This document shows positions 1 through 30,371 of a stretch of 30,371 bases of DNA, piece by piece. The stretch is from positions 1 through 30,371 of the IMG/VR virus record IMGVR_UViG_3300025168_000413; one strand, written 5' to 3'. Source of the DNA: a virus. The notes under the pieces are model-generated. The model saw nothing but the letters and a program-made list of their open reading frames with translations. It ran no database searches and had not been told where the DNA came from. A program made the position numbers and the translations under genes. Within the stretch, counting starts at the first letter, position 1. Each line of letters begins with the position of its first letter.

Positions 1-3000
1 TTGTAAAGTGCAAGCGGTGCCAAGTTGGTAAATTGACTACCGGCATCGGGCTCAATATCGAGTATGACTTCATTCAGTATGACTTCACACCCTCTTACAT
101 CGGCCATCATAGCCTCTGCAAGTATGAGAGCATAGCCTCCTCTTGTTGACATATTTCTTTCTATAGCAATGACAGTGTTTACCTGTTGTCCTGTCAGTTC
201 AGTGACTTTTGTTCCGCTTTCGCTCGGAGCCTTAACTGCGTCACTATGGTTCAAGTGAAAGCCCTGTAACTGTTGCTTGAATACATTCGGCTGGATGATA
301 ATTTGATACGCACCTACCTCTAATGGGTCGGGGAAGTGGTTGTTCAAAGTATAGGTGTTACCTGCCTCTAAGACAAGCGTATGTCCTCCTTGAGAGTTGA
401 TAATTCCGGCGTTCGACCCTGCGCTTGCGGCAATGCCGTAGCCTTCATACTTGACTTTGGTTTCAGTGAGTAAGGTAAACGCACCACCATGTATGTCACT
501 CGGACCAAAACCAGCGGTAGCAGTGGAGAACCAAACCAGCGGGTCTCTTGTAAATCCGGAACTTGCAAGTGTTGCGGTCGATGATGTGCGTGTGCCTTCA
601 AGCGTGCCAATGTAATTGTCACTGTCCGGTTTGTAATTAGAACTCTTACAAGCCGTGTTGAGGTCGTATAGACGCTGGTAAGCAGGGTGAGCGTAGTGTC
701 CCGGCATCAGTGCCATAGTAGGTGTGACATAATGATGTCCCATTCTTGGTATAGGCATAGGTGTCATCTTTGGCTTGTTGATTTGAGTAAACGCTGTAGA
801 TGGCTCAGCCATAGCACCTGTGTTTGCAGGTAAAGCCCCATACATAGTAAACCAATCAACTGATTTCATGTCCGGACTTGCACCACTGTATTCACTTTGG
901 TCCCTTAGTCTTCTTGCCGCAAAGAGTCTTGTCGAGCCTGCTGGCATGTAATAACTTGGCACTACTTTGAGTCCTGTCTTACCAGTAACGAATGATACAA
1001 AGTCCGGACTGAAAACAACACCTGTAAACTTATTCGTGCCTATACCTGTGTAAGAAGCAATGACACCTTTATCAGTAGCAGGGTCATAGACTCTTAGGAA
1101 ATAACGCCCTCCGCTTAATTCAGTTGAGTTAGTCCAAGTGGCAGTTTCGGGAGTAGAGCCGACCGTAATTTCAGTTCCGGAATAACTTGAATATGTCAAT
1201 TCATCTACATCATGTCGATGAGTCATACTGACTCCCATTCTCGTTACATGAAACATTATGCTACGGTCATGTGGTTCATACGACGACTGCAAAGGAGCGT
1301 TATCAGTATGGTCCTCCCAGCCTACATTACTTGATGCTGGGAACTTTAATCGAGCCGCACTCTTTGTTGTAGATACATCTACAGCGTCTTGGCTGAGATG
1401 TTCCCAGCCATTGTTTTCCCAAGTAGGGAACAGTCTCGGACCTGCGTATTCATAGTCAAACATTTTGCGTATTTGACTGATGTTTTGAGCAGGGTGCTGT
1501 AGACCACCCGAACCAAACGATTCATTTTGATAAGCCTGTATTCTGTCAAAGCCCGACCTTACAACAATGTTACCGGGTATCTCATCGGGATTCGGTAATC
1601 TAATTTTGAGATTCGGGTTGACACCTGCACCGGCAAGTGCTGGAGCAAGACCTTCAATCTCTCTGTCGCTTATGTGACGGAAGTCCATAATGACGGTTCC
1701 CAAAGGACTGCCTCCTTCAAGTCGATGCTCTTGACCTGTATCGTCCATAACGCTGACGCTTTCAAACTGAATGTGTTCATTAGGAATAAGCAAAGCATTG
1801 CGGACTTCTAATGGGTGTTGTTCAGCCAGTTGAGGATGACTCAATTCCTGCGCTTGTATGATAGGGAACATAGCGGCGTTTGTTGTTTCAAACGAGAAGC
1901 GAACATTACCGAGTATTTTCTCACCCACTAATTTGTAACTGCCACCGTCTTTCCTCTTCGTCCAAGGAATCATACCCAACCCTCTCGCATTTACAGCAGG
2001 CATAGTAAGACTACCTCCGTCCATTCGTTTCCAAACGACATGCTCCGGTAAGAAGTTGCGAGCGGCACTTCTCTTGTTGTAATAATCGTAAAGTCCGTTA
2101 TGAGGCTTAGCAGTAGCCCCTGCTCCTATGTTGAGATAATCATTGCGACTGGTTACACCTATACACTCAACAGCGTAAGTTCCAGCGTCTTCGTGAAACA
2201 TCGAACCCTTGACAACTGATTCATCCCAAAACAAATCACCAGTTGGGTAATTACAAGCATTCGCTCTTACCATATCACCGCTTTGTATAGTTCTATGAAG
2301 TTGAGCGTCGGATGCCGCCGCCCCTGTATTAGGGTAACTATCAGCATCGTATGGCTGTGTATAGCCAGTGTGAACCTGCGCTTCTACATGAGGGCCAGCA
2401 GTAGCAGGACCTACATATCGACTCTTGTTGTTGACTTTATTAGTGTCCCAAGCCATTGTTCCAGCGTGCGCTATGTTGTTTGATTGCGCTACATGTAACC
2501 AGTCACCTGCGCCCGAAATACCATTAGCGTCTGCTTTTGCTATAATTGGTAATTCACCTTCGTGGCTAACAGCGACAAGGTGTCTACTGAAAAGACCTGT
2601 TACGCAGTAATCACCATAGAATGCAACGGTAGGGTTCTCTACTCCACCTGTAGGAGCATTACCAACAGTGCATGTCTCTGCCGCTCCGTAAGGATTGAAA
2701 CCCAAGAAAGAGTGCCATGCGCCCAAACCAGCAGGATGCAAGTTCGCACCTATGTCGTTTGTCGCTTCGTATGAGTTGAGATAAGAATACGCTTCTCCAT
2801 GCCAACCTACTGCACCTACCGGTTTTGTTCTGTCAACAGCATCGGTAAAGCCACTAAAGTGAACCTGTGTCATGTGGTCTCTCGCCGCACCCGAAGCGGC
2901 GTTGTTGAATCTGTGAGTGCCTGCTTTTGCCCAAATGTAAGCCTTGTAGTTACTGTCGGGTGCAATCATCTGTCGATTCTGCGGGTTTATTACATCAGTA

Positions 3001-13103: not shown

Positions 13104-13104
13104 A

Positions 13105-15096
13105 TCAAACACCTATAACAAAGTCGGTTGCCACGAGTAGCATCGTGAACGCGTAGTAGTTGTTCCCAGCATCATATCGCACATGAAGTTTCTCCGGCAT
13201 TATCCTAATTCCGCCGTCATTACCGTGAGCCTGTGTTCCGGGGATAGTAACAAACATATCCTCAATCACATCAGCAAAGAATCCAACGACAGATTGAATC
13301 TCGTCAAACGGCGAGGCACTCAGTATTTTTTCAAAAAAACTATTCGCACCGTCATCGTCTGCATTACCTCCTTCGTCACCAGTAAGAAGGAATTGATTCA
13401 TTAACTGAGAGGCGGCTCTTGTGTTTTCATCGGATGTCTTTTGAGATTGCGGTAAACTACCGAAGGTCAAAAAGAAGTTGCGTGCTGTGCCCGTTACTCC
13501 GGAACTGGTGACAAGGCTATCATAGGGTATCTGTATACCTCGGAACATATCAATACTTTTTTCCGAATTGGAGACAAGGCCGATTAAGTCTTGAACCTTG
13601 TCACCGGCAGACCTTGCTGAGTTCACATTGCGTGAACTTGACAGTTGAAATATCTGTGGATTCAAGAGTTCGGAGAAAGCATTTGTTACCATTGTTGGAT
13701 GTTCGATTACATCATCGACATGATACACTTGCTCTATGACAACTATAGGGCCGTTCACTACGGCAATAAACGCTGTAGCGAGTGTCTTACCTGTCTCGCT
13801 TATATTTTTAGTGCTAACATTAGAGGAGAGTCCAAACGCTTCAGTGAATATCTCAGCAAGCGTAGCCGCAGGAGATTTACTATCTGTAGTCATAAGACCT
13901 TTGATAGGTATATTGACAATCGCATCGTAATTAGAAGCGTCTTGGTTTTTCCCATTTGCCCCACTTACATGGTTAAGCACTGCACGAGTCAGTGTAACTT
14001 GGTCCGAGCCACCAAGTAATGAGTGAGTTTTACTGGCATCAAATTGAAACCTTATACCAATAGGTGCTTGTCCGATTCCGGTAATCCCTAAAAGAGAATC
14101 TCTATAGCAATTTGAGCCTTTAGGGTTACGAGATGGGTCTTCTAACCAATAAGACGGAACAATTTTGATAAAGTTACCGTCTAACAAAGACTCTGTATTG
14201 TTGTTGGCTCTGTTTATGGTGAGTGTGTCGCCTTCTATTATTTGCGCTTGAGTCACTGCTTCAAGTTGTATATTGAATATGTCTTGCGTGCTACTGTCCG
14301 AAATAGAAGTGACATAACCTAATAATTCATTTCTTCTGTTAAAGCATTTAGGAAATACAAATAATTCATCATTTGCTGTTATGGAGGTGGGTAAAGCACT
14401 TGAAAAAGTTACACTGGTGTCTGTTAAGGCACTGATGTCACCTAAAAGTGTTCCAGCCGAATTGACTACTCTGTCACCGATATTCAGCCGAGCCAACGCT
14501 CCCAAATCCGGATTACTACTTATTGAACCGCTCAGCGTTGTATCTAAAGTAAGCGCACCTGTTACTCCTGCTGAGTGACCGCCTGTAAACTTCAAATCAA
14601 TGTCCATTTTAGTCGAAAGTGTGTTACTGCCACTCCAAACTAAATAATTAGGCCCTTTGACTGTCAACAGGCTTGTGGAGCCTAAAACGACACCATTAGT
14701 TGGGTTAAAAACGGGAAAGAGCGTTTCTCTGTTTTGAGTGGTGATATAAGAAGACCTTTGTAACATTATTCCGTCACAGAATGGAGCCGGTGTAAAGTTG
14801 CTAAATGGTCGGGTGGGCAACATGTTTCCGAAGTTGATGAGAGTTTTCATAGGGCTTGATGATAGAGAACTATTGGCACTGTGCTGTGTATCGACTCCGG
14901 CATCATCGGTAATAATCCCGTTCATCTCCAAAGTCACTCTTGGCGTGTTTGTATCTATAGCAAAACGCTTGAGAACATTACCGGGTGTTGGGAACGCTGA
15001 AATGTTACGGTTTACCTCCATCTCTATATTTTGAACAATCAAATCCGTTTGGATTTCACTTTGCGCTCCTGCGAGTAACCGAACCGGAATTGCCAT
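13105..15096 (-). CDS. Distal tail/baseplate-region protein, paralogue B (663 aa)
   Basis: The function is not recognised by name, but the protein is clearly a paralogue of the gene just upstream (15106-17664). The first 67 residues match in pattern (PVRL, then KRFAIDTN, then NGIITDDAG against PIRL, KRMGIDLN, QGALTDDTG). The last third matches too (GDKVQDLIG, RGIQIPYDSLVT, RNFFLTFGSLP), as does the hydrophobic end (YYAFTMLLVATDF). The centre differs: it has no LamG domain, and carries at residues 203-249 a small beta module (IGDRVVNSAGTLLGDISALT) also seen in the 192-residue head-region protein and the giant protein. The start is ATG with a strong GAGGTGA site overlapping the upstream stop codon. 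Placed between the tape-measure slot and the giant adhesin, it is probably a tail-tip or baseplate component that is co-assembled with its paralogue; this is inferred from position. Confidence 0.8.
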   Translation of the reverse strand: MAIPVRLLAGAQSEIQTDLIVQNIEMEVNRNISAFPTPGNVLKRFAIDTNTPRVTLEMNGIITDDAGVDTQHSANSSLSSSPMKTLINFGNMLPTRPFSNFTPAPFCDGIMLQRSSYITTQNRETLFPVFNPTNGVVLGSTSLLTVKGPNYLVWSGSNTLSTKMDIDLKFTGGHSAGVTGALTLDTTLSGSISSNPDLGALARLNIGDRVVNSAGTLLGDISALTDTSVTFSSALPTSITANDELFVFPKCFNRRNELLGYVTSISDSSTQDIFNIQLEAVTQAQIIEGDTLTINRANNNTESLLDGNFIKIVPSYWLEDPSRNPKGSNCYRDSLLGITGIGQAPIGIRFQFDASKTHSLLGGSDQVTLTRAVLNHVSGANGKNQDASNYDAIVNIPIKGLMTTDSKSPAATLAEIFTEAFGLSSNVSTKNISETGKTLATAFIAVVNGPIVVIEQVYHVDDVIEHPTMVTNAFSELLNPQIFQLSSSRNVNSARSAGDKVQDLIGLVSNSEKSIDMFRGIQIPYDSLVTSSGVTGTARNFFLTFGSLPQSQKTSDENTRAASQLMNQFLLTGDEGGNADDDGANSFFEKILSASPFDEIQSVVGFFADVIEDMFVTIPGTQAHGNDGGIRIMPEKLHVRYDAGNNYYAFTMLLVATDFVIGV

Positions 15097-15108
15097 ATTT
15101 TCACCTCA
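15096..15108 (-). promoter_or_regulatory. Stop codon overlapping ribosome site (paralogue A to B)
   Basis: The stop TGA of the LamG paralogue is the first part of TGAGGTGA, which is the ribosome site for ATG 15096. It suggests translational coupling, with ribosomes that stop here helping start the next gene. Confidence 0.7.
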
Positions 15109-17664
15109 TAGTATAATATCAGCGGCCATGAACCTAAGACTGAACTCATAGGCTTTATGCTCCGCTTCTCGGCTTATCACCATATCAGCAACAAGTCCAC
15201 TTATGCCGTTTTTCAAATGCCCTTCATGCGCATGAGAAAACAACCTTGAAGCGTGCTCTGTGTTGATACTTGATAATTTATCAGCAGTCAAGCCCTCAGT
15301 TGTCAAAAAGAAGTTACGCTGTGCTATGTGTGAATCCAAAGAGTTCTTACCTTTAGTGACATGAGTCAAGTAAGGTATCTGTATGCCTCGGATATAATCG
15401 CCAGTTGAGTCCTGTGGATTGATTTGATTTGCAACTAAGCCAGTTCCTGCCTTGATGAAATCACTTACGATACCTACATTTGGATTAGAAGCATAATTGT
15501 TACTGTTTGCGAGTATACCCAGTAAATCCTGCGCTTTGTCTCCGCCACTCTTTATAGGGCGACCACTGTTACTACCGGCAGTTCCACTCTTACCTCCGGA
15601 GAATCCTTGAGTAACGGGCATTTGTCCAACACCCAATGTGGTGTTGATAGTATCGGATGACTGTCCGAGAGAAGACGCAAACTGCTGTGTTATTGTCAGT
15701 CGACAGTTATGAGTATGATATGACTCACTGATAGCAGTAGAGAAAACCTTGTCCATGGTCTTATTACCGGACGCATCTACCTCTCTACCCACATCCATGT
15801 AAGAAGCAGTGATGGCCTTTGACATGAGATAAGTCAAGTATTCGTCAGTTCTTGTCAACCCTCCTCCTGTGTCACGAGCAGAGCCGTCTTCGTATGTCGG
15901 GAAACTTGGACCTACCGCCGCTTCGGGTGCGGCGAACTCGTTGAAAGTGTCAGCGTTTTGAATAGGAATTACAATCACAGGACTACCGGGCCTACCTCGC
16001 AAGTTTGTATCTGCATAATTAACAGGAGCGATGTATATTTCATCATCGTCTGCCGGACTACCCGGTGTATCATACTGAACTACTATGTTATTAGCATTCG
16101 CTGAGAGCACAGAGGCAAAAAGTAAATCCGTCCCTGCTGTATTGGTAACATAAGGACCGCTTCGCTTAAACACTATTTTTTGATACCTACTGTTCTCAGT
16201 AGGCTCAAACCATTCATGAGGATTACCGCCGGTAACTGTAATTGTATTACCGGAAACACCGTTGTTATCAACTTTCATACCTGTATTTCTTTCTACATTT
16301 AAAAAGCCAAAAGGTTCTTGCTTACTTGCAACCATCAAATCATCGAATGTAACTCTTACATGCTTCGATTGATGAGCAAAACTACCCACCCCAGCATACT
16401 CGTGAGTATAATAAAGACCTATTCCGTATTTAACAGAAAGGTAACCTTCGACTTGCTCTCTGTCATCATCACTCAATACAGAGTTGTAAATGAGAATCTC
16501 GGCTATTTGTCCGTCGAAAAAGTCACCGGACATCTCGCCTATTTTTAAGTTGGCCGAGCCATTAGGAACATAGTCTACGCTGGAGGTGTCTTGAGCCTCT
16601 TGCCTACCGTTGACAAAGAGAGTAACAGTGTCGGATTGCGAATCAGCGTCTGTGTCATCCATGACATAAGTCATTATTTGGGCTCCGGTATTGACGACAG
16701 AATTAGCCGCCGAAGTGATGCCATCGTCACCACCACCCCCTCGCCAAAAAGCAGTAGAGTATTTGACCCTCATATCCATAAAGAGAGCAAATCCTTTACC
16801 GCTTTCTATAGAACTGACTACAGTGTGGTCTCCGGCTGTAGCGTTACTCTTCGCAACACAGAAAACAGTGAACTCTTCGGAATTGAAAAATGCTGAGAAG
16901 GGAACCTCCATATCGTCATTTACACCGTCGAACTTCAAAGCGGCTGGTCCTATCCCTGCACTGGTAAATGTAGGTTGTTCGCTTGAAGTAGACTGAACAG
17001 CGTTCCTACCGTTACCACTACTGTCAGTCCAAGTGGCTACACCGCCGCCTTCTTCTATACCAGTTATCGAGTCAGCCTTAAGCCAAAGTTGTAAACCTGT
17101 CTTTACAGGATTGTCCAGCGATTGACTCGCTTCTGTCCAATATGCTACTGGTAAATCAATGTATTTTTTAGCCCAGTATTGAAGTATTCTATTGCCGAGG
17201 TCACTTGGCTCTAAAGGACTACCTCCGCTGGAGCCGCCTAAGCCTCCGGAAAAGCCACCTGTATTACCTACAGTCCCTGCTATACCAGTAGTAACACCTT
17301 GAACGGTATTACCAGCAGGCCCTGCCATGTTGAAGGATGATGCAACAGGACCAGCGTTGTTACCGCCACCTCCGCCATTAACGGGTTGACCCCAACTTAC
17401 AATCATTTGAGGTTGGTAAAAATCAAGAGTAGCAACAGCCTTTGAACTTGCAGTTTGACCTGTGTCGTCTGTAAGTGCACCTTGTATTTCAATCATAACA
17501 CTTGCTTGATTAAGGTCTATACCCATACGCTTAGCGTCGAAGAAAGGTATAGCGAAGTTACTCTGTATGCGCTCAACTACAATGTCAACACTTGTAGCAT
17601 CAAGGGAGATAGTTTCACCGTTCTCTTGAACGAGGCGAATCGGCATCATCTCCCCTGCGTCCAT
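15106..17664 (-). CDS. Distal tail/baseplate-region protein with LamG-like domain, paralogue A (about 852 aa)
   Basis: The N-terminal domain (about residues 8-72 from the longest start) and the C-terminal region (GDKAQDLLGILANS, RGIQIPYLTHVT, RNFFLTTEGLT) are shared with the next gene, marking a tandem duplication. Between them lie a glycine-rich linker at about 97-152 and a LamG/concanavalin A-like domain at about 189-420 (LQLWLKAD, TWTDSSGNGRNA, LKFDGVNDDMEV, VTLFVNGR, FFDGQIAEILIYN, VEGYLSVKYG). Such domains bind carbohydrate or protein in many phage tail proteins. ATG 17664 is chosen; a GTG at 17670 is also possible and would overlap the previous stop by 4 nt (GTGA). An AGGAG site upstream could serve either start. 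Probably a tail-tip or baseplate protein with a receptor-binding insertion. Confidence 0.8.
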   Translation of the reverse strand: MDAGEMMPIRLVQENGETISLDATSVDIVVERIQSNFAIPFFDAKRMGIDLNQASVMIEIQGALTDDTGQTASSKAVATLDFYQPQMIVSWGQPVNGGGGGNNAGPVASSFNMAGPAGNTVQGVTTGIAGTVGNTGGFSGGLGGSSGGSPLEPSDLGNRILQYWAKKYIDLPVAYWTEASQSLDNPVKTGLQLWLKADSITGIEEGGGVATWTDSSGNGRNAVQSTSSEQPTFTSAGIGPAALKFDGVNDDMEVPFSAFFNSEEFTVFCVAKSNATAGDHTVVSSIESGKGFALFMDMRVKYSTAFWRGGGGDDGITSAANSVVNTGAQIMTYVMDDTDADSQSDTVTLFVNGRQEAQDTSSVDYVPNGSANLKIGEMSGDFFDGQIAEILIYNSVLSDDDREQVEGYLSVKYGIGLYYTHEYAGVGSFAHQSKHVRVTFDDLMVASKQEPFGFLNVERNTGMKVDNNGVSGNTITVTGGNPHEWFEPTENSRYQKIVFKRSGPYVTNTAGTDLLFASVLSANANNIVVQYDTPGSPADDDEIYIAPVNYADTNLRGRPGSPVIVIPIQNADTFNEFAAPEAAVGPSFPTYEDGSARDTGGGLTRTDEYLTYLMSKAITASYMDVGREVDASGNKTMDKVFSTAISESYHTHNCRLTITQQFASSLGQSSDTINTTLGVGQMPVTQGFSGGKSGTAGSNSGRPIKSGGDKAQDLLGILANSNNYASNPNVGIVSDFIKAGTGLVANQINPQDSTGDYIRGIQIPYLTHVTKGKNSLDSHIAQRNFFLTTEGLTADKLSSINTEHASRLFSHAHEGHLKNGISGLVADMVISREAEHKAYEFSLRFMAADIIL

Positions 17665-17666
17665 AA

Positions 17667-18086
17667 TCACCCGCTCCTGTTAAATCCGCTCTGCGTGAGT
17701 GAGCCGCCCATTTTACTTCTCAATTCTTTTGTCACCATAGTGCTGATTTCTTTAGCGAGTTTTTGCTTGTCGCTTTTATCAGTCACCCCGCTGACATCTA
17801 TTCTTAAGTTGACAGTGACATTACTTTGCGAGCCTCCGCCTGCTCCGCCTGTCATCTGTGCTTGAGACACAGGCTCGCCCATCATCTGTTGAAATGGTTG
17901 AGACTTCTCCATGTTTTTGAGAGAAGCCGTTAAGTCTGTGCTGTTCACCTTCGTCATCTCCATTGACTTGCTGAACTTATCCATTTGCTGTTGCAAGGCT
18001 TTCATGTTTTCACCTGCTTCTTTGCTGTATTTTTTGAACTTCTCCATCGCTTCTACTGAGCGTGGGTCAATATCGCCGTCAATCAT
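17667..18086 (-). CDS. Short coiled-coil protein, candidate miniature tape measure or its C-terminal piece (139 aa)
   Basis: Residues 1-65 are strongly helical and charged with M, K, Q and E (AMEKFKKYSKEAGENMKALQ), followed by a Gly/Ser-rich hinge. Residues about 89-128 read NVTVNLRIDVSGVTDKSDKQ and continue with a helix; to my knowledge this resembles the last segment of long tape-measure proteins, where a short beta strand is followed by a helix. It lies exactly where a tape measure is expected, after the chaperone-like genes and before the distal tail genes, yet is far shorter than usual (commonly over 500 residues). It could be a true miniature tape measure for a very short tail, a remnant, or a separate tail chaperone. 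Start ATG 18086 has a GGAGGAG site that overlaps the end of the previous gene. Confidence 0.7.
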   Translation of the reverse strand: MIDGDIDPRSVEAMEKFKKYSKEAGENMKALQQQMDKFSKSMEMTKVNSTDLTASLKNMEKSQPFQQMMGEPVSQAQMTGGAGGGSQSNVTVNLRIDVSGVTDKSDKQKLAKEISTMVTKELRSKMGGSLTQSGFNRSG

Positions 18087-18088
18087 GA

Positions 18089-18811: not shown

Positions 18812-18821
18812 ATGACTCCCC

Positions 18822-21379: not shown

Positions 21380-22983
21380 GCGAAGACCACCACTTCCTTG
21401 TAGCGAGCGAGAATCTCCATAGCCTCTCTACGCCATAACTGTGCCTTTGAGCCGAGGTCAATGTTTTGTCCACCTTCGGGAATTAGCACTGAGCGGTCGT
21501 CAGCCATCAGTAGTTCGCTCGCTACAAGTTTAGTAGCGGCTTCTTCAATTGCCTTCTCAAGGTAACGCTCACCATAAATGTATGAGCACTTAATGGCATT
21601 CCATTCAAAGAAAGGGTATGAGTTGTTGAAGTAAATAATCCCCATCTCGGAGTCGAGCCACCAGTCACGCAGTCGTGCACTGTCTCCACTACTTGAGCCA
21701 CCTTGTAAGTCAACGACAAAGGAGTGCTGAGTGACTGTCCCACTGGACGGTAGACTGCCTCCGCTGACAACAGTGCAAGTTATGAACTTGGTATCAGTTT
21801 TGCTTTCATACCGGAAAACTTTTGTTCCGTCAGTTGCAACTCCCGACTTGGTAAAATTATTTGTCGAGTTTACGCTGATGTCATCAGTGTCTACTATACT
21901 TGCAACAGTAGCAGTTGCCAGTGTAGTTTGGTCGATAGTAATGTCGCTACTGTCAGTGACGATGGAGCATTCTTCTCCTGCTTTGACAGAGCGCATCGAG
22001 GTCACCTTGACAACACCGGTTCCGTAGTCGGAGTTGGCTGATGCAAGGAACTCGTTATGGACTGCGACATTCGATGTCGAGCCTTCTAAAGTAAAGCCAC
22101 TACCGTCCGACTTGAGAAAGTCCACACTCGTTTTGCTGACTCTATCCTCTTTATTGATGAGGTCAGCCAAGTTTTGAGCAGTTGAATTAGCATCAATCTC
22201 TCCACGCCACTTTGTTGTTCCTTCACCGGCCTCAAGCGTAGCAACGGTAGCGTTACCAAGACTAAGAAACACCTTCTTACCTGTAAGCGAGGCCACATTG
22301 TCGAACTCGATTCTCGCCTCTGCTCCACCAATCTCTCGGTAGTCGTCACCTTGCCATAGTTCGATTCTCAGTATTTGCTGAACATTACGGAAAAGCAAAG
22401 GTGCTGTCCCGACATAATCTGTATAGTATCGTCGACGGTAAGGCTTGTATGTATCGAAGTTGATGTATTCTGCTGTAACAAGGTAAGGTCTCCAAGCATT
22501 ATGAGTGATATTGTCTATACGGTCTTGTATACGGCGTATGTGGTCGTTGACGATGTTCTTTGTTACGCCACGACTCTTACCGTTGGTGAATATAGTGAGA
22601 TTCTGTATCTCTGTGTTTGCGGCAGTTGTATAACTGGCTAATGCATCATTGGTTCCAGCCGCCCCTCCGTCCAGCGTGGTTGGTAAGCGCACATATTTTG
22701 TCCCGCTTACATCCTGCACGCTTGGCGTACCAATAGTGAATGTTTCTCCTAAAGGGTAAAGGTCGCTGTAAACAAATATACTGTCTCCACTTTCAAAGCC
22801 ATGTTCCCGAAGGTCAGTACCACTGATGTAGAAGCCATTAGCGTCAGCGTTTGCCGCACCAAGGACAGGTTCGCCTGCCGCAATGCCAAGGAGTTGCGCC
22901 ACCTTGTCGCCAGTCGTATACACGACAGCAGTGGGGTCAAGAGGTCGAGTTTCGGGCTCACCGGGACTGAATACTGTTGGCAT
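21376..22983 (-). CDS. Head-tail adaptor (connector) protein with inserted beta domain (535 aa)
   Basis: Two parts are typical of head-tail adaptors: the helix-loop HIRRIQDRIDNITHNAWRPY followed by VQQILRIELWQGDDYREIGG, and near the end CSYIYGERYLEKAIEEAATK leading into LVASELL and a final helix REAMEILARYKEVVVF. These form the ring under the portal. Between them lies an added stretch of about 250 residues (roughly 220-430) that is beta-rich and Thr/Ser-rich, plus an extra N-terminal domain of about 130 residues. The usual adaptor is 100-250 residues, so this is an enlarged version. ATG 22983 has a strong AGGAGGAG site. It is followed directly by the terminator-like gene. Confidence 0.6.
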   Translation of the reverse strand: MPTVFSPGEPETRPLDPTAVVYTTGDKVAQLLGIAAGEPVLGAANADANGFYISGTDLREHGFESGDSIFVYSDLYPLGETFTIGTPSVQDVSGTKYVRLPTTLDGGAAGTNDALASYTTAANTEIQNLTIFTNGKSRGVTKNIVNDHIRRIQDRIDNITHNAWRPYLVTAEYINFDTYKPYRRRYYTDYVGTAPLLFRNVQQILRIELWQGDDYREIGGAEARIEFDNVASLTGKKVFLSLGNATVATLEAGEGTTKWRGEIDANSTAQNLADLINKEDRVSKTSVDFLKSDGSGFTLEGSTSNVAVHNEFLASANSDYGTGVVKVTSMRSVKAGEECSIVTDSSDITIDQTTLATATVASIVDTDDISVNSTNNFTKSGVATDGTKVFRYESKTDTKFITCTVVSGGSLPSSGTVTQHSFVVDLQGGSSSGDSARLRDWWLDSEMGIIYFNNSYPFFEWNAIKCSYIYGERYLEKAIEEAATKLVASELLMADDRSVLIPEGGQNIDLGSKAQLWRREAMEILARYKEVVVFA

Positions 22984-23027
22984 GACCTCTCCTCCTATTC
23001 ATCCCATGAGGGGTCTTCGTGATAACC

Positions 23028-23312
23028 CTATTGCTCTTTCTTACCGAGATTGAAGTCAACTGGCTTGTTACATGTCCTGCATGTATCGACCCAGCAAAAG
23101 TATAGCATACCGCAATTCTTACAGCGTGTACCCGAACCAATGTTCAGCACATCACCAGCGTTCTTATTGCGGTTTCTTTGTTTGACAGTGACACCCGACA
23201 GAGGTTTATCCTCGTTGGTTCTTACCGAAGCACCGTATGATTCGTTAAGACGAATGCCACGCTTTTGTAAACGCTCGATGTCATCAAGTCCGAGGCTACC
23301 GAATCCTTGCAT
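23028..23312 (-). CDS. Small zinc-ribbon protein (94 aa)
   Basis: A CxxC pair at Cys64/Cys67 (CKNC) and another at Cys78/Cys81 (CRTC), 10 residues apart, form a zinc-ribbon or treble-clef-like knuckle; Cys73 lies between. The N-terminal half is basic and probably disordered (VKQRNRNK). Zinc-ribbon proteins of this size can bind nucleic acid or act as assembly factors; the exact role is unknown. The gene lies between capsid accessory genes and the head-tail adaptor, so a role in neck assembly or DNA packaging is possible. The start ATG 23312 follows a GAGGTGA site that contains the stop codon of the preceding gene. After its stop (TAG) there is a 44-bp gap. Confidence 0.75.
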   Translation of the reverse strand: MQGFGSLGLDDIERLQKRGIRLNESYGASVRTNEDKPLSGVTVKQRNRNKNAGDVLNIGSGTRCKNCGMLYFCWVDTCRTCNKPVDFNLGKKEQ

Positions 23313-23326
23313 ACTTACTCACCTCA
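23312..23326 (-). promoter_or_regulatory. Stop codon overlapping ribosome site (72-aa gene to zinc ribbon)
   Basis: The stop TGA of the 72-residue gene lies inside TGAGGTGA, 14 nt from the ATG of the zinc-ribbon gene. Coupled translation is inferred. Confidence 0.7.
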
Positions 23327-23542
23327 AACTGTGTAGGTAAGTAAGAAGTAATGATTGCCAAGCGAAGTGAATGGTTCAATGCTGATTAAAGCAGTGGTAT
23401 TCGCCGCCGCAACTCCAAGAGCACCTGTGCCACCTGTGGCTCGGATGTCTGCTTGTATGAGTGCAGTAGCGTTTCCATTACTCATCTCTTGAGGACTGTA
23501 AGGACCGATGACTCGGTTTCCATAGCCACTAAGAACTGCCAA
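23324..23542 (-). CDS. Small hypothetical head-region protein (72 aa)
   Basis: A short Ala/Gly/Thr-rich protein with no known domain; it begins LAVLSGYGNRVIGPYSPQEM if the start is written as its codon TTG. The start TTG 23542 is chosen because the GAGGTGA site sits 6 nt upstream and overlaps the preceding stop codon; no ATG is suitably placed. The C-terminus reads LGNHYFLLTYTV and looks like beta strands. Codon pattern, tight spacing and strong ribosome site support a real gene. It may be a minor capsid or decoration protein, inferred only from location. Confidence 0.65.
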   Translation of the reverse strand: MAVLSGYGNRVIGPYSPQEMSNGNATALIQADIRATGGTGALGVAAANTTALISIEPFTSLGNHYFLLTYTV

Positions 23543-23556
23543 GGTGAATCACCTCA
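23542..23556 (-). promoter_or_regulatory. Stop codon overlapping ribosome site (192-aa to 72-aa gene)
   Basis: TGAGGTGA combines the stop of the upstream gene with the ribosome site for a TTG start 14 nt later. It fixes TTG as the start of the 72-residue gene. Confidence 0.7.
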
Positions 23557-24132
23557 GCGTTGACCGAGAATCCAAAAGCGACCTCTATCTAGGCTTACAC
23601 CAGTTAAATTATTACTGTCTTCTTTATCAATATTACGACCTGCATCAAAAATAACAAGGCTGTTGGTTTCATCAATCGAAACATCGAGAGAGTTGTTCTG
23701 TGCAGTAATAGCCGCATCAGCCAAAAGAGACATTTTAGATGCACCTAATACATGAAGTGCGTCATTGTCAGCCATTGCTTCTACTAATGGTGTGTCAATA
23801 GTAACAGCCGTAGCAGTAACAGCGGTGATTTTACCGAGTCTTGTGCCAAAAGCGTTGTAAAGAGTTTGACCGACATAAACACATGAGCGAGCATCTCCCG
23901 CTACACTACCAGTATCTACAGTCAATACTGTTTGTCCTATTGCTTCAGCAGAACCATTGTTAATAAGAAGCCCACTTGGTGCAGTAGAAGTCAAATGCCC
24001 ACCAGCGGCGAAAACAGTTGAAAGGATTCCGTCATAGGAAAACTCTGTTCCACCTTCGCTAAAAGTTCCTGTTATCATGAGCATATCGCCCATTACATGT
24101 GTTCGTGTATCTCCTGTGCTTGTTGCCGCCAT
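23554..24132 (-). CDS. Beta-rich virion protein, possible head decoration protein (192 aa)
   Basis: No named family is recognised. Residues 86-130 contain the beta module VGQTLYNAFGTRLGKITAVT followed by a Thr-rich strand and ADNDALHVL, which is repeated in pattern in the 663-residue tail protein and in the giant protein. The remainder is Gly/Thr/Ser-rich and looks like strands (MLMITGTFSEGGTEFSYDG). The ATG overlaps the preceding stop by 1 nt (TAATG), and the ribosome site AGGAGATGA is the same as that of the capsid gene. Placed four genes after the protease and before the neck genes, it may be a capsid fibre, decoration or minor head protein. Confidence 0.7.
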   Translation of the reverse strand: MAATSTGDTRTHVMGDMLMITGTFSEGGTEFSYDGILSTVFAAGGHLTSTAPSGLLINNGSAEAIGQTVLTVDTGSVAGDARSCVYVGQTLYNAFGTRLGKITAVTATAVTIDTPLVEAMADNDALHVLGASKMSLLADAAITAQNNSLDVSIDETNSLVIFDAGRNIDKEDSNNLTGVSLDRGRFWILGQR

Positions 24133-24542
24133 TATTCTTCATCTCCTGTTATTGTTGTTTGTTCTGCCTCTACCGGCTCTTCGACTGGTTCGGGCACTGC
24201 TACTGGCTCATCGACCATAGGCTTTAGAGTTTCCTCGACCATTGCCAATAGTTTTGCCTTTGTAGTGTAACCACTATACTCAACACCTCGCTCGGTCAAC
24301 CAAGCACTAATGTCTTTCTTTGTCCAGCCCGAATCCGGAATGCCGTCGTCCTTTGCATCTACTGTGACTGTCGCTTGTTCGTCGCCTTCAACAAGGAATG
24401 CTGTTGGATTGGAGCAAACTGCTACCCGATGAGTGTCCAGCCATTCTTGACTGACTTCGACGGGTTCTTTGCGAATCCAAGAGTCCTTGATGTCCGGCCT
24501 CTTTCGATAGACGGTAGGTCCCAAGTATGTTACTGTAGGCAA
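24132..24542 (-). CDS. HeH/LEM-like domain protein (136 aa)
   Basis: Residues about 67-106 form a helix-extended-loop-helix unit (GWTKKDISAWLTERGVEYSG then TTKAKLLAMVEE), typical of HeH/LEM/SAP-like DNA or protein binding modules found in many phage packaging and head-completion proteins. Residues 1-60 form a separate small beta-rich part. The tail (108-136) is rich in Pro, Glu and Val and probably disordered. The start is TTG 24542, selected by a GAGGTGA site 6 nt upstream; ATG is not available. Position after the capsid gene suggests a role like the lambda FI/packaging-assist proteins, but that is only analogy. Confidence 0.65.
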   Translation of the reverse strand: MPTVTYLGPTVYRKRPDIKDSWIRKEPVEVSQEWLDTHRVAVCSNPTAFLVEGDEQATVTVDAKDDGIPDSGWTKKDISAWLTERGVEYSGYTTKAKLLAMVEETLKPMVDEPVAVPEPVEEPVEAEQTTITGDEE

Positions 24543-24556
24543 GGTTATTCACCTCA
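24542..24556 (-). promoter_or_regulatory. Stop codon overlapping ribosome site (156-aa gene to HeH gene)
   Basis: The same TGAGGTGA arrangement leads to a TTG start 14 nt after the first base of the stop. It fixes TTG as the start of the HeH-domain gene. Confidence 0.7.
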
Positions 24557-25024
24557 GCCTACAATCATTGTCAAGTGAACAAAGTCATTTGCACCACCGA
24601 CTGTGAAGGTCAGTTCACCAGTTTCGTGGGAAACAACTGTTACTCCTGCACTTAGTGCTTCGTCAGTGTCTGTTTCGTTCACATAGTTGATAAGAGCGTA
24701 GATTCTACTAAAATCGGTGTTGTAAGCGTTGACTGCGAACTTTGCAGTTGTTGCAGTTGCTCGTGCTCTTACTGAAATCATCCGTAGACTCGACACTGGT
24801 TTGTTTGTTCCTTGGGCGTTGGTAGCCGTGAACGGGGTAAGAGAGCCCGGATAACCGGCCACTCCTGCGTCGTATGCCGCTCCCGAACCACTCAACCAAG
24901 CGGTGTTGTCTTCAAGACCAGCCGCACCGGGTGTCTTAATCGCTCCGCCTGTGTTTCCGCCCATTGGTATATCCAAGTAGGTTGTTACTGTATCAATTGC
25001 TGTATGTGCTGTTACTGTTGCCAT
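24554..25024 (-). CDS. Small virion protein following the capsid gene (156 aa)
   Basis: An Ala/Thr/Gly-rich protein with probable strands (RMISVRARATATTAKFAVNA, ELTFTVGGANDFVHLTMIVG); no known domain recognised. It is the gene immediately after the major capsid protein and carries an identical 29-bp leader with an AGGAGATGA ribosome site, suggesting similarly strong translation. High expression next to the capsid gene fits a decoration or cement protein that binds the mature capsid, but the sequence itself does not prove it. Start ATG 25024 begins MATVTAHTA, with the first two codons shared with the capsid protein start. Confidence 0.65.
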   Translation of the reverse strand: MATVTAHTAIDTVTTYLDIPMGGNTGGAIKTPGAAGLEDNTAWLSGSGAAYDAGVAGYPGSLTPFTATNAQGTNKPVSSLRMISVRARATATTAKFAVNAYNTDFSRIYALINYVNETDTDEALSAGVTVVSHETGELTFTVGGANDFVHLTMIVG

Positions 25025-25046
25025 AATTTTTCATCTCCTATATTTT
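25018..25046 (-). repeat. Duplicated capsid-gene leader, copy 2
   Basis: A 29-bp stretch identical to the leader of the capsid gene, covering an AT-rich tract, AGGAGATGA, AAAAATT and the start ATGGCAA. It supplies the ribosome site of the 156-residue gene. Beyond it both copies run into A-rich sequence that no longer matches exactly. Confidence 0.9.
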
Positions 25047-25058
25047 ATTTTTTTATCC

Positions 25059-26186
25059 TCACTTAAGGTCACGGATTGAACCTTGACCTCCAAAGAATGT
25101 TGTCCAAACTTCACCCATTGTTCGGTAAAGTCCCTCTTGTCCGAGGCGGTTGACAGCGAACGGGTCGCCAGTTTCAATTCCGCTTTCAAAGTATTGAGTT
25201 GGTTTTGCAGTAGAGAAGTATGTGTAGTCAGTGTCGAGCATGTAGATTCTGCTGATACCGTCGCTTGACATCTCCTTGGTTGGGATGATAGGAACACCGT
25301 TGTATGTTGCAACAATGAAACCAGCCTCAACACCGGGAACGCCCTTAACACCGTTGAAGGTAGGGACGACTCTCTTTTCCTCCATGAATCGCTGTTGCGA
25401 TTGTAGAAGTTGTTGAATACGCATCAAGGTATCATACCCAGTAAGCATAACTTTCGGGTTACCTCCTCTTTCCCAAACGAGACGGAAAGTCTCATCCAAG
25501 TGGTCGAGTGAAAGAGTTCTGTTGGTAGAACCACTGTCAGCAGAGTCTTCTGCGAAAGCCCATGTGTTGTCACTGCGGTTGATGGAGTAAATGTCTTCAT
25601 CGTTTGTATCGTAGTGAGTTCCGGAGGTCATGCTGTTGTTTCCAGTAGTGATTCGGTCAAGAGACTCGATGTCGTTTCCTGCAACAGTTGTAACATCAGT
25701 AGTGAGCATATCGTTGATGTGCTCTGCGTGATGCTTACCCATTTCTTCTTTCAAGACTGAGCGAATGTCGCCAAGTCCATCGTCCTTGTCGTTAAGGAAA
25801 ATTGCTGTTTCGGACATATCGAACGAGTGTGCGATTGTCTTTGGCTTTGCGGCCACATTTTGGAAGGTAGGTTTGGTGGTGTCCGGAAGAGTTCCGTTTT
25901 CTGCGATACCGCCGCCAACTGTCTTAGAAGGCTTTGCGGTGACGACACGCCATCCACTGCGGTCCCAAGGCTTCTTAGGTAGAATACTGAATGCGTTGAA
26001 CTCTTGGTTCAACTGAGACCAAACTTTGCGACCGTAAATTGCTTGGTAGGTTCCAGCGGTGGTGCTCAAGAGTGGTGCGTCTGCTTTCAATAGTTCGCTA
26101 CCACTGTAGGAGTAGCCCATCGAAGAGCCTGCACCGTAGTAGTATCGTTCCATATCGTTAATTGTTCTCATGTAATTTCTTGCCAT
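25059..26186 (-). CDS. Major capsid protein, HK97 fold (375 aa)
   Basis: This protein builds the capsid shell. It has the order expected of HK97-fold capsid proteins: N-arm; a loop region with WDRSGWRVVTAKPSKTVGGG; a spine helix (LGDIRSVLKEEMGKHHAEHI); the A-domain (LDHLDETFRLVWERGGNPK); and the closing TTFFGGQGSIRDLK. At 375 residues it is the normal size. It lies directly after the protease-scaffold gene, as in many HK97-type operons. There is no long N-terminal delta domain; a protease site near residues 30-40 (before LLSTTAGTY) is possible but unproven. The start ATG 26186 has a strong AGGAGATGA site within the duplicated leader, consistent with heavy translation. Family assignment is by fold pattern and gene order rather than a specific match. 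Confidence 0.85.
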   Translation of the reverse strand: MARNYMRTINDMERYYYGAGSSMGYSYSGSELLKADAPLLSTTAGTYQAIYGRKVWSQLNQEFNAFSILPKKPWDRSGWRVVTAKPSKTVGGGIAENGTLPDTTKPTFQNVAAKPKTIAHSFDMSETAIFLNDKDDGLGDIRSVLKEEMGKHHAEHINDMLTTDVTTVAGNDIESLDRITTGNNSMTSGTHYDTNDEDIYSINRSDNTWAFAEDSADSGSTNRTLSLDHLDETFRLVWERGGNPKVMLTGYDTLMRIQQLLQSQQRFMEEKRVVPTFNGVKGVPGVEAGFIVATYNGVPIIPTKEMSSDGISRIYMLDTDYTYFSTAKPTQYFESGIETGDPFAVNRLGQEGLYRTMGEVWTTFFGGQGSIRDLK

Positions 26187-26208
26187 AATTTTTCATCTCC
26201 TATATTTT
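26180..26208 (-). repeat. Duplicated capsid-gene leader, copy 1
   Basis: This 29-bp unit ends in the first codons of the capsid gene and contains AGGAGATGA 10 nt before ATG 26186. It is identical to the unit before the 156-residue gene, in direct orientation, 1,162 bp away. The similarity stops after the AT-rich tract. Confidence 0.9.
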
Positions 26209-26214
26209 TTTTGC

Positions 26215-27060
26215 TTATTGTTGCCAAACGCTACCTGCGAGGCGGTGAACATCGTCCCAATCCATGTTACCAAGGTCTTGGGTTGAAGGGATTGCAACAG
26301 TAGAAGCCGACTTGCGTAGTTCTACTCCTGTTGAGGCAGAGTTGCCTATGTTGTCAATTCGACCACTGAGGTCGCTCAAAGCCTTCTCAATGTTTGCAAG
26401 AGGTGTTCTTGCGTCGAAAGAAGAAGCGGCTCGGTGGTCTGCTTCTGCGGTCATCTCCTTTGAAAGTCTGTCAGCGAAGACAGAGCCAAGGTTGGATTTG
26501 AATTGTTCTTCAAGACTTGCGGCCTTGTAGACTTCGTAAGCGGCTTCAAGGTCGGATGCACTGACTGCTTCGGGAGAGAGGTAGCCTTTTGCGACTGCCT
26601 TTCCACTACCACTGTTGAGTTTGCCGATTGCACCAGTTGACGGGTTTCCGCCTTCTTGCGCTCGTCCTTTAACTTGACCGGCGAAGTAATCTGCACCGTC
26701 TCCGATTTGTTCCGGAGTGGAGCCGAGGTTTGCCTTGTTGATGTCATCGAAATGAGTGCGTGCACCGGAAATATCTACACCTTGAGATTTCAAGGTGTTT
26801 TCCATCCAGTTCAAATAATCAGTAGTGATTACATCGCTGTATTCACTCTTTGCATACATTCCTTCTTTTGCGTCTTTGTCGGCCATTTTCTCACCTTCGT
26901 CTTTTTTGTCTTCGTCGTCTTTAGACTCTTTAGGCTTGTCTTCTGCCTCGTCTTTTTTGTCTTGCATAAACGGAGGCATTTCTTTCTCCATAGTGTCAAG
27001 TCGTCCATTCAATCTGTCAAGCACTGTGGAGAGTTCTCCTAATACATTATTATCGTTCAT
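26215..27060 (-). CDS. Scaffolding protein from internal in-frame start (281 aa)
   Basis: Met180 of the protease fusion is preceded by AAGGAGG with 8 nt spacing, a better ribosome site than that of the full-length gene, and the codon ATG begins just where the protease domain ends (RILKEDTHM then NDNN). Internal scaffold starts are known in lambda (C/Nu3) and in herpesvirus protease-scaffold genes. The product would be the coiled-coil plus charged scaffold without the protease. It is inferred, not demonstrated, since both features could arise by chance in Lys-Glu codons. Confidence 0.6.
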   Translation of the reverse strand: MNDNNVLGELSTVLDRLNGRLDTMEKEMPPFMQDKKDEAEDKPKESKDDEDKKDEGEKMADKDAKEGMYAKSEYSDVITTDYLNWMENTLKSQGVDISGARTHFDDINKANLGSTPEQIGDGADYFAGQVKGRAQEGGNPSTGAIGKLNSGSGKAVAKGYLSPEAVSASDLEAAYEVYKAASLEEQFKSNLGSVFADRLSKEMTAEADHRAASSFDARTPLANIEKALSDLSGRIDNIGNSASTGVELRKSASTVAIPSTQDLGNMDWDDVHRLAGSVWQQ

Positions 27061-27597
27061 ATGTGTGTCCTCCTTCAATATACGGAATGTCGCCTCCGGG
27101 TTAATACCTTTCTCGCAAATGGTGACCTCGTGCAGTTCCAGTTTGGAGATTTCAGTGTAATCGCCGTGGCTATTATCACTCTTACGCATTCTCTTGAATG
27201 CTTGTCCTCCAATACTGAAACCTCTAAGGGCTCCTTTGCGAATCTCATTGGCTACTTCACGAGCCTTTTCGATGTCATCTCGGAGGCGAATGACAACAAA
27301 CATACCTGCGTCGTCAACTCCGGATTTCCAAACACGACCATCATTGTCCGTGTAGTTGTTAATGACTTCTCCGACTTGTATGTTAGAGTGTGCAAGTTGC
27401 ACATTACGGAAACCGTCTGCTTTCATGAATCCATCAAAAGCATCCCTTAGTGCGCCTCTTGTAATAAGGTCGCCTTGTTTGTCGACCATTTCAACTGACG
27501 CATAGCCAGCGATAACAAGGTCGTTGTCCGACTTAACAATGCTGATGTTCCCACTGTGCTCGACAGGGGATGTTCGCAGGGTAAGAGCGGAAGCCAT
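26215..27597 (-). CDS. Prohead protease fused to scaffolding domain (460 aa)
   Basis: The first ~175 residues are an HK97-type prohead serine protease (peptidase family S78-like). Visible motifs are AGYASVEMVDKQGDLITRGA, the likely catalytic His70 in NVQLAHSN, the likely nucleophile Ser128 in ALRGFSIGG, and the segment LELHEVTICEKGINPEA, where H156 or E157 may complete the active site. Residues about 180-460 form a scaffold: a coiled coil (ELSTVLDRLNGRLDTMEKEM), a highly charged Lys/Asp/Glu linker (about 208-245), and a helical C-terminus containing ALSDLSGRIDNIG. The protease cleaves scaffold and capsid proteins as the prohead matures. A strong internal start at 27060 could make scaffold alone. 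Start ATG 27597 has only a weak GAGGTC ribosome site. The capsid gene follows 28 bp later. Confidence 0.85.
   Translation of the reverse strand: MASALTLRTSPVEHSGNISIVKSDNDLVIAGYASVEMVDKQGDLITRGALRDAFDGFMKADGFRNVQLAHSNIQVGEVINNYTDNDGRVWKSGVDDAGMFVVIRLRDDIEKAREVANEIRKGALRGFSIGGQAFKRMRKSDNSHGDYTEISKLELHEVTICEKGINPEATFRILKEDTHMNDNNVLGELSTVLDRLNGRLDTMEKEMPPFMQDKKDEAEDKPKESKDDEDKKDEGEKMADKDAKEGMYAKSEYSDVITTDYLNWMENTLKSQGVDISGARTHFDDINKANLGSTPEQIGDGADYFAGQVKGRAQEGGNPSTGAIGKLNSGSGKAVAKGYLSPEAVSASDLEAAYEVYKAASLEEQFKSNLGSVFADRLSKEMTAEADHRAASSFDARTPLANIEKALSDLSGRIDNIGNSASTGVELRKSASTVAIPSTQDLGNMDWDDVHRLAGSVWQQ
27069..27074 (-). promoter_or_regulatory. Internal ribosome binding site for scaffold
   Basis: AGGAGG, the full consensus core, lies 8 nt before the in-frame ATG 27060 inside the protease gene. 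It decides the proposed scaffold start. Confidence 0.65.
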
Positions 27598-27627
27598 TGA
27601 CCTCTACACAACGGTCATACTATTTAA

Positions 27628-30371
27628 TCAAGTATGAAATACAGCCTTATCCGAATCAATCTCTAAGACCCCTTCTTTGGTAGGTATAGTCTTGCGCTTA
27701 GCAGGCTCTTCGTCATCCATTTCGGGCTCAATATCGGAGTCTTCTCCGGGTCGTTTTCTGTTGTCAAAATCCGGCATAGTCTTTGAATCATGGAGATTTG
27801 TCGGACCTGTAGGTGATTCTATAGGAGTGGCATAGTCAAAGCCCAATCCCTTAGCACCTGCATTTGATGCACCCACTGCACCTACGCTACTTTTGAGAAA
27901 CTTGTCAATGAACTGTAAGCCCTTGACAAGAACTTTTTTCTTTTCGTTTTCTTTCCACCAATCGGAGTCTTCTACTTTCTTAGGCTCAATCAAAGGTTCC
28001 GCTTCGCCCTGTGTTTCATTGACTTCTTCTTTTTCAGCAATCTCTAAACCTGCTTTGAGAAGAGCACCTGCTACAGGAGACCAATAAGAACGCTGACTTT
28101 CAGCAAGGCGAATGACATAATCACTCTTGGCTAAAGGAGAATGAACCATCCAATTTTGTCCGGATTGAGTGCACTTGTAAAGCACATCACCTTGCGGCAT
28201 AGATACACGGATGCCCGACTTCGCTCTTTGGACTTCACATAACCACTGCACATCATTTGACTTGGCAAGCATACCAAGTGTTTCTCTACTGACAAGTCCT
28301 TCGCCTTCTGCTTCTTCGATAATTTTAGAGGCTGTCAATGTGAATACGCTATCTCCGTCAGCGGATTCAACTTCACTCACATTAGCGGCATTGACCTTTA
28401 CATGGTCTCCCTCATTGAACTTTTCCGGACTGTTGAACACTACGCCTACATCCATGTATGTTTCACCTTGAGACTCTACTGCTCTGTCACCTATTCTCTC
28501 ATCTCTTGTAATAGGACCAGTTCCGAGCCTGTAAGTGTAAGGGTTACTACCTCTTCTTTCAAGCACTCTCAAAACAACATCGTTACCGGGCTTGAGAAGA
28601 ACCCACTTAGGATGACGCAATTCACCGGCCATGTAAACAGACTTTGCATCTCTAAGAAGGAGGTCTTCATACTCTTCACTTAGATTCTCAACTATACCTT
28701 TCAGCCCTTCATCGTCAGTCAGTCTCGTATCGCTGGCACTGGGAACATGTATGTTCTCAACGCCCTCCATACCTCCTCGCAGTATTTTGATTCTGTCGGA
28801 AAGAACGACACTGTGGACTTCTTTCTCAGCAAACTCTATCACATCGAAAATGTAGTAACCGTCTTCTAATTTGATAACATCAGCGTGAAAGTCCTCGTCT
28901 GTTACTTGCTTGAAGTTCTTCTCGTCTTCATCACTAAGCGTAAATGAAGAAGTTACTTCGTCATCCTCTTTCTTGACAAAGCCTCTTTCGCCCTCCGGCA
29001 TATGAGATACTATCCAATCTCCGCTGAATCCTCTTAACTCTTTGAGGTCGTCAATTTCAAAAATGCGATGCATTGGTTGAAGGAGGGGAACTTTCGGCCC
29101 CAACTCCTTACGGATTATATCCGGATTGGTGAGATTGGCTAAGTTGTCATGTGACTTAGTAGGCGACAACTTGTCGGTATTACGAGTAAGACCAATTGAG
29201 TTTGGCTTGAACTGCGGACCCATTATATCAACCCTATTGAGTCTCTCTCTATTACTTTGATGTTCGGGATGAAAGCGCATATCCATCCATGATTGAGGCA
29301 AACTCAAAGCATGCCAAAACTTCGCCAAAGGTTGAATGAGCCTTGTCTTGTTCTTTTGAGGGTCAGCAGGCGTGATGTTGACATTGCCGTTTCTTGATAT
29401 TCTGTATGTAAAGTTGGGGCTGAACTCATCTCCAAACTCATGTCGGAAACCAGTTGAGTTGTAAACACTGTGAACAGAATGAGCATCCGGACCGAACTGG
29501 TCGACAGGCACACCTGTTATCCCATGCACTTTTTGCGACACTTGTTGAGGCGGTTCAACATTTGGTAAGTCTGTCATTATCGAATTAAGTTTCTGCATAA
29601 CATTCCAGTAATCATTTTCAGCCTTATGCATACTACCACCAGTGCTTTTTGATGGCCTTGTTTCATGTATGGTCTCCCCGTTATTGTCTGTCTTTCGCTG
29701 TCGACGAGGGTCGCTGTTGTAAGCAAGGTGGTGATGAATACCAAGTTGAGAGTTTCTTTCTTTTGCCGAAGCATGACCTATGTTGTTGTAAAGACCGTTA
29801 ATCGTTTTCAAGAAGTCAGTATCTCTCGCTCCTTTTCTTAACTTAAGAGACTCAAGAGCCTTGTCTATATCGAGGTCGGGATGAAGTTGCTCAACATACT
29901 GCTTCATTGTCATGACAGACGGAGAGTATGTGGGGTCTTGTAGGAGTTGAGGTATAATGTTATTCTCAATATAATCTAAAGCGGTCTTTCTATGATACTC
30001 GTTATTCGGGTCAAGTCCAAGGCTTTCGATAAAGCCATCTCTGTCTTGCAAAGCCTGTATACCCGCTTTGTTTGAATGTCCTGCCAAAGCATGCTTTACA
30101 CCTGTGCCAATATCAACTTGGCCTTGGTGCCCGTCTTCTGTATACTGGTGACTGGCCTTTGTATGTATACCGTGTTGCTCATGAGGAACTGTGTTGAGAT
30201 AATCATTTGCCATCATAGCGAACATTCTCATGTTTGCTTCGGCAGTTTCATGGTCGAGGTCGGGATTAAAAATATGATTGTAAAGTGCAGGGTCTTCTTG
30301 AATCATACGCTGTAAGTGCGCTCCCGATTGGCTGATTGCACCTGTATCAGCACGCAGTCTGTCTTCAAGTA
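27628..30371 (-). CDS. Large protein of unknown function upstream of protease (5' end beyond window)
   Basis: The open frame continues through the right edge without a stop: 21 codons precede the first ATG (30306) and read like protein (LEDRLRADTGAISQSGAHLQ), so the gene probably starts outside the window. At least 913 residues are visible. The first ~250 residues are helical; a middle part is basic and aromatic (RLIQPLAKFWHALSLPQSWM), and then comes an acidic, strand-rich part (FAEKEVHSVVLSDRIKILRG). The last ~130 residues are charged and probably disordered. I do not recognise a portal, terminase or MuF-type motif. The gene lies where portal or head-morphogenesis genes normally stand, directly upstream of the protease, so a head-assembly role is inferred only from position. 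A 30-bp gap separates it from the protease gene. Confidence 0.75.
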   Translation of the reverse strand, partial: LEDRLRADTGAISQSGAHLQRMIQEDPALYNHIFNPDLDHETAEANMRMFAMMANDYLNTVPHEQHGIHTKASHQYTEDGHQGQVDIGTGVKHALAGHSNKAGIQALQDRDGFIESLGLDPNNEYHRKTALDYIENNIIPQLLQDPTYSPSVMTMKQYVEQLHPDLDIDKALESLKLRKGARDTDFLKTINGLYNNIGHASAKERNSQLGIHHHLAYNSDPRRQRKTDNNGETIHETRPSKSTGGSMHKAENDYWNVMQKLNSIMTDLPNVEPPQQVSQKVHGITGVPVDQFGPDAHSVHSVYNSTGFRHEFGDEFSPNFTYRISRNGNVNITPADPQKNKTRLIQPLAKFWHALSLPQSWMDMRFHPEHQSNRERLNRVDIMGPQFKPNSIGLTRNTDKLSPTKSHDNLANLTNPDIIRKELGPKVPLLQPMHRIFEIDDLKELRGFSGDWIVSHMPEGERGFVKKEDDEVTSSFTLSDEDEKNFKQVTDEDFHADVIKLEDGYYIFDVIEFAEKEVHSVVLSDRIKILRGGMEGVENIHVPSASDTRLTDDEGLKGIVENLSEEYEDLLLRDAKSVYMAGELRHPKWVLLKPGNDVVLRVLERRGSNPYTYRLGTGPITRDERIGDRAVESQGETYMDVGVVFNSPEKFNEGDHVKVNAANVSEVESADGDSVFTLTASKIIEEAEGEGLVSRETLGMLAKSNDVQWLCEVQRAKSGIRVSMPQGDVLYKCTQSGQNWMVHSPLAKSDYVIRLAESQRSYWSPVAGALLKAGLEIAEKEEVNETQGEAEPLIEPKKVEDSDWWKENEKKKVLVKGLQFIDKFLKSSVGAVGASNAGAKGLGFDYATPIESPTGPTNLHDSKTMPDFDNRKRPGEDSDIEPEMDDEEPAKRKTIPTKEGVLEIDSDKAVFHT

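Follow-up and report, generated by a model that had tools for sequence, protein, structure and literature searches.

Gene content of the window and its relatives

The window, by which we mean the whole stretch of DNA analysed, is the 30,371-base IMG/VR virus contig IMGVR_UViG_3300025168_000413 (positions 1-30371). Its gene content is structural only, and the main features are:

3..13112, minus strand: presumed giant virion or tail protein (open reading frame of at least 4370 amino acids, no stop before the window end)
15106..17670, minus strand: virion structural protein with a laminin-G-like lectin domain
25059..26186, minus strand: major capsid protein (SU10/HK97 type)
26215..27597, minus strand: prohead protease (Peptidase_S78)
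27628..30369, minus strand: large open reading frame, adjoining the protease and open at the window end, given no function

The capsid protein has more than 500 relatives in IMG/VR, the nearest of which are 95-96% identical to it. It is also about 34% identical to that of the haloarchaeal virus HVTV-1 (Haloarcula Druskaviridae), and this SU10-type capsid is one of several likenesses to that virus, the others being the genomes of 90-115 kb that the window's relatives reach and the PolB, ERCC4 and thermosome genes found between two relatives that we examined. Such sizes and genes agree with published accounts of Poseidoniales magroviruses (PMC10160649, PMC12999244), which reportedly rank among the most abundant viruses of the ocean (PMC10160649). 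On strong but indirect sequence grounds we regard the window as probably the structural-gene end of a tailed archaeal virus of magrovirus-like type, and its host is presumably a Poseidoniales (Marine Group II) archaeon. A scan of genome contigs with a viral thermosome as query returned only a magrovirus-type contig with a thermosome (L188) inside a GTDB genome labelled Maricaulis sp., a placement that is probably a misbinning.

Short words missing from the window

A first-pass annotation made from the sequence by eye had claimed that GATC, AGCT and ACGT are absent from the window and that GTAC occurs only three times. Our recount gave exactly these numbers and added two tetramers that the annotation had overlooked, CTAG and CGCG, with a single copy each. 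As a null model, synonymous codons were shuffled among the 17 main genes in 300 draws, which preserves both the proteins and the codon usage. The expected counts were 80 for GATC, 111 for AGCT, 93 for ACGT (range 73-112), 114 for GTAC, 72 for CTAG and 49 for CGCG, and the minimum reached by any of the six tetramers in any draw was 33. The observed counts of 0-3 lie so far below the expected 49-114 copies per word that codon usage alone cannot explain them. The giant open reading frame likewise lacks the avoided words. Codon choice bends around the missing words as the annotation had proposed: aspartate before C is encoded 84 times by GAC and never by GAT, which elsewhere makes up 48% of aspartate codons, while aspartate before GT is encoded 38 times by GAT and never by GAC.

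Longer words are missing as well. YCWGR, a set of eight pentamers that includes CCWGG, has no copy against about 203 expected, and GCWGC none against 53. Four asymmetric pentamers fall about 6-15 fold short of expectation in either orientation (observed/expected: CACAA 4/61, GGAAG 6/70, AAGAT 8/65, GTTAG 9/52). The window thus avoids at least eight specificities; the annotation was right to speak of several, but its figure of three or four was too low.

The annotation had also noted that CATG, TGCA and TCGA are common, and we counted 122, 127 and 105 copies. CATG, TGCA and CCGG stand at or above the codon-shuffle expectation, with TCGA somewhat below it (105 against 139), so that, as had been claimed, the avoidance is word-specific and not a shortage of palindromes in general. 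GGTAG is not avoided either (78 copies on both strands); methylation at CGCG and GGTAG has been reported for one MGIIA MAG (PMC9516812).

The few copies that remain of the otherwise missing tetramers are:

13150..13153: sole CGCG
22727, 22817 and 23128: the three GTAC
23589: sole CTAG

Four of these five exceptions fall within 863 bases, in a patch at 22727..23592, an arrangement with a chance of about 0.0005. The patch may have been imported, or may have mutated, recently.

A constant core and a changing accessory set

Four capsid-based scans yielded a comparison set of 168 non-redundant loci of at least 9 kb (2.83 Mb). The check in relatives that the annotation had proposed shows that avoidance recurs with clade-specific sets of words. 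Three words form a core: AGCT has zero copies in 162 of the 168 relatives, GATC in 161 and CCWGG in 158. Over the whole set, 436 copies of AGCT were seen where 10365 were expected, 301 of GATC where 10365 were expected and 182 of CCWGG where 4322 were expected, and all of these copies are restricted to 6, 7 and 10 viruses, respectively. In an unbiased scan of all pentamers CCWGG was the sole one to fall to 4% across the group. CATG, TGCA and GANTC reach or exceed expectation.

The other words behave differently. ACGT, CTAG, CGCG, TCGA, GTAC, GCWGC and YCWGR are each absent in only part of the set, the 11 motifs counted occur in 35 different combinations, and on a capsid tree of 114 of the viruses the accessory words switch state 3 to 15 times each. 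Even the window and its near neighbours, at 95-96% capsid protein identity, hold differing accessory sets. The annotation's reading needs amending for CCWGG, AGCT and GATC, which do not vary in the manner of ordinary restriction systems and are avoided across nearly the whole virus group.

Could a bias of codons or composition, or a sequencing artefact such as libraries cut at GATC or AGCT, have produced the pattern? There is a general depletion of some AT-rich words, and nothing more that points this way. The codon shuffle described above speaks against bias, as does the absence of the core from relatives across a GC range of 37-59%. An artefact of library preparation is difficult to reconcile with sample 3300030098, which yielded both a GATC-free, AGCT-rich locus (L047) and a GATC-rich, AGCT-free one (L064). 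We reject this explanation, to which we assign practically no probability.

Asymmetric pentamers are also near-absent in subsets of the 168 loci (CCAGA in 69, CGTCC in 28, CCCAG in 25, CAGAG in 24 and GAGAC in 22), which suggests that non-palindromic specificities are involved as well.

Methyltransferases and the return of avoided words

An m5C methyltransferase (PF00145) was found in five records (G026, G027, G055, G056 and G069), all of which hold AGCT. This makes five of nine AGCT-holding records against two of 135 AGCT-free ones, the latter being weak matches (Fisher 5e-6, not corrected for kinship), and the other four AGCT-holding records are fragments of 19-48 kb. The AGCT-linked enzymes are 92-100% alike, and their co-occurrence with the word suggests that they are specific for AGCT; one such gene lies at 17129-17911 of L092. 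Dam (PF05869) was found in three records (G023, G060 and G061), all of which hold GATC; the proportion is three of eight GATC-holding records against none of 90 GATC-free ones, two of the three (G060 and G061) having been retrieved through the Dam gene itself. The Dam gene of L081 (G023) lies at 17457-18029. Here, too, co-occurrence points to a viral Dam with GATC specificity. No Dam above the cut-off was found in the GATC-holding lineages L059/L064/L065 and L250/L252, which are partial contigs. A D12 methyltransferase occurs in one record and is not associated with any avoided word.

The clearest case of release is a pair of loci, L236 and L237, that are 90.5% identical over 20.2 kb and hold 0 and 12 copies of AGCT, respectively, with no GATC in either. 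L237 is 99.9% identical to L235, which sits in contig G056 (L307-L309), and this contig is a mosaic, its first 15 kb being AGCT-rich and including the m5C gene and the remainder AGCT-poor. Together these sequences suggest that the enzyme was recently imported and that avoidance then relaxed for AGCT alone, although a chimeric assembly of G056 is also possible. Release of AGCT together with this apparent import argues that unmethylated sites, and not methylated ones, are the liability.

This bears on the converse idea that host methylation of the sites is what harms the virus, be it through type IV restriction, the steering of mismatch repair or regulation by orphan Dam, Dcm and AGCT methylation. 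The idea has attractions: the core triad coincides with those persistent orphan methylation motifs that are most widespread among archaea (PMC10609329), phiX174 lacks GATC and thereby evades mismatch repair (PMC5014478), and Dam-methylated DNA is attacked by the Mrr of Haloferax (PMC7230728). However, a penalty on methylated sites predicts that viruses with Dam or the m5C enzyme should be the last to hold GATC or AGCT, and the opposite was found. We consider this explanation quite unlikely.

Two further observations speak to whether the avoidance is merely old and inherited, with no present selection, as the absence of the core words from nearly the whole group might be taken to imply. The window and its neighbours share only about 77% nucleotide identity although their capsid proteins are 96% identical. 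Silent sites have thus been heavily turned over and the words are still absent, which argues that selection is current. Moreover, AGCT has returned within about 10% divergence in the methyltransferase-linked lineage. An inherited relic is contradicted by these observations and is highly improbable.

The analogous prediction that viruses holding CCWGG carry a PF00145 m5C enzyme failed, with none of the 10 CCWGG-holding viruses doing so; one of them, the 110 kb record G108, has a PF01555 gene. Those holders of GATC or CCWGG that have no matching enzyme may, the 110 kb record excepted, be incomplete, and a switch to another host would explain them equally well. The anti-restriction protein ArdA was found in six of 54 relatives (G003, G008, G040, G041, G042 and G060).

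Avoidance in PolD-encoding viruses

Marine viruses with three tandem m5C methyltransferase genes are represented by L129, by a 160 kb contig (L130, L321-L326 and L404) and by a 166 kb contig (L403). L129 and L130 were retrieved as methyltransferase relatives and, not being magrovirus-like, served as an outside comparison. L404 and L403 encode the large subunit of archaeal PolD. Over the 120 kb of the 160 kb contig that were read there is no copy of ACGT, AGCT, CGCG, CTAG, GATC, GTAC, TCGA or CCWGG. The core triad is absent also from unrelated archaeal viruses that encode PolD (L130 and L403), which tends to favour a cause on the side of the host.

This finding also weighs on the proposal that nucleases with these specificities are encoded by the viruses, which would use them to degrade the DNA of the host or of rivals and, having no sites, would escape their action. 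Nucleases of the PD-(D/E)XK and restriction-enzyme-like kinds appear in the ICTV profile of a magrovirus family (PMC12999244), PDDEXK_1 and ERCC4 proteins were found in relatives, and type II nucleases are easily missed in sequence searches. Against it, the 95 proteins of two near-complete relatives gave RecB-like PDDEXK_1, ERCC4 and helicases and no type II enzyme among the best 25 of 31 Pfam and the best 25 of 56 PADLOC families. The viruses would need at least 8-10 such specificities, and the same core words are missing from the unrelated PolD viruses. A viral origin of the nucleases appears unlikely.

Interpretation

Absence beyond codon usage, recurrence with a core and a switching set, and release linked to methyltransferases together support a host defence directed against unmethylated sites. 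The ArdA genes of relatives, the loss of the triad in the PolD viruses and the CGCG methylation reported for MGIIA point in this direction too. We think it very likely that the host attacks DNA not bearing its own methylation and that the virus has erased the words at which this happens, and escape from restriction-type specificities, as the first-pass annotation had suggested, is the best reading of our data. In this mechanism the host cells would possess several methylation systems with these specificities, and sites left unmethylated would be cut or otherwise penalised. Selection at mostly synonymous sites would then remove every copy of the attacked short palindromic words. Two viral escapes would be open, deletion of the sites, as in the window, or their methylation, as in those relatives that encode Dam or the m5C enzyme linked to AGCT.

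Parts of this pattern are known from other systems. Viruses of the HF1 group of haloviruses are also archaeal and tailed, and they wholly lack CTAG and GATC, with AGCT absent in one and many 6-mer palindromes absent, which has been ascribed to host restriction and methylation (PMC7230728). Unlike these, the window avoids at least eight specificities in 30 kb, and its group shows a core common to the 168-virus set, accessory sets that switch from one close relative to the next, and release linked to methyltransferases acquired in several lineages. Under-representation of orthodox type II sites is likewise an anti-restriction strategy of prokaryotic viruses (PMC6286503), whereas here the avoidance is absolute and extends to many sites, and the counterparts of the core motifs are orphan methyltransferases, not restriction systems of patchy occurrence. 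HVTV-1 has no GATC in 50 kb, yet AGCT (75/182) and CCWGG (117/154) are retained, and it has preQ0-type genes. We found no report of site avoidance in magroviruses in the literature searched, the founding magrovirus paper lying outside it. The present group differs from these precedents in how many words are missing, in sharing a core throughout, in switching its accessory words and in the link between a word's return and the gain of a methyltransferase.

The core motifs deserve separate mention. The persistent orphan methyltransferases of archaea have the motifs CCWGG, GATC, AGCT, CGCG, GTAC and CTAG, including the pair GATC and AGCT, and they mostly have no nuclease partner (PMC10609329), a point that counts against the reading above. 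The survey deals with host genes and reports none as persistent among the 18 Thermoplasmatota covered; a viral counterpart was not seen in the passages used here. It is conceivable, and we put it forward tentatively, that CCWGG, AGCT and GATC form a conserved epigenetic self-code of marine archaea, in which the supposed orphan methyltransferases would label self, a host activity would penalise unmethylated sites, and at least two unrelated virus lineages would have erased the words or copied the methylation. The fixed core makes the role of these methyltransferases directly testable. As the hosts of magroviruses are uncultured and their defences almost unstudied, the erased words provide a readable list of specificities for each virus lineage, and these lists can be tested against host genomes and methylomes.

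Even spacing of retained GATC

In four records GATC is retained at about one-third to one-half of expectation and is evenly spaced, about every 0.7-0.9 kb. The coefficient of variation of the spacing was 0.98 at random, with no draw equally even:

G023 (L081-L086, L041): 0.51
G060 (L310-L312): 0.47
G061 (L313-L315): 0.46
G058 (L316-L317): 0.53

The first three bear Dam, and G058 lies on a separate branch. The other words tested in G023 were randomly spaced, and even spacing was not found for AGCT, CTAG, TCGA, CATG, CCGG or CCWGG. One GATC per 0.7-0.9 kb may be required, as it would be in methyl-directed repair, or sites lying close together may be penalised; a search for MutS and MutH as a cause of the regularity found neither in 23 viral records. 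Within the otherwise evenly spaced G023 genome, GATC is clustered in about 1.1 kb of L081 (3546-4629), possibly an origin-like region.
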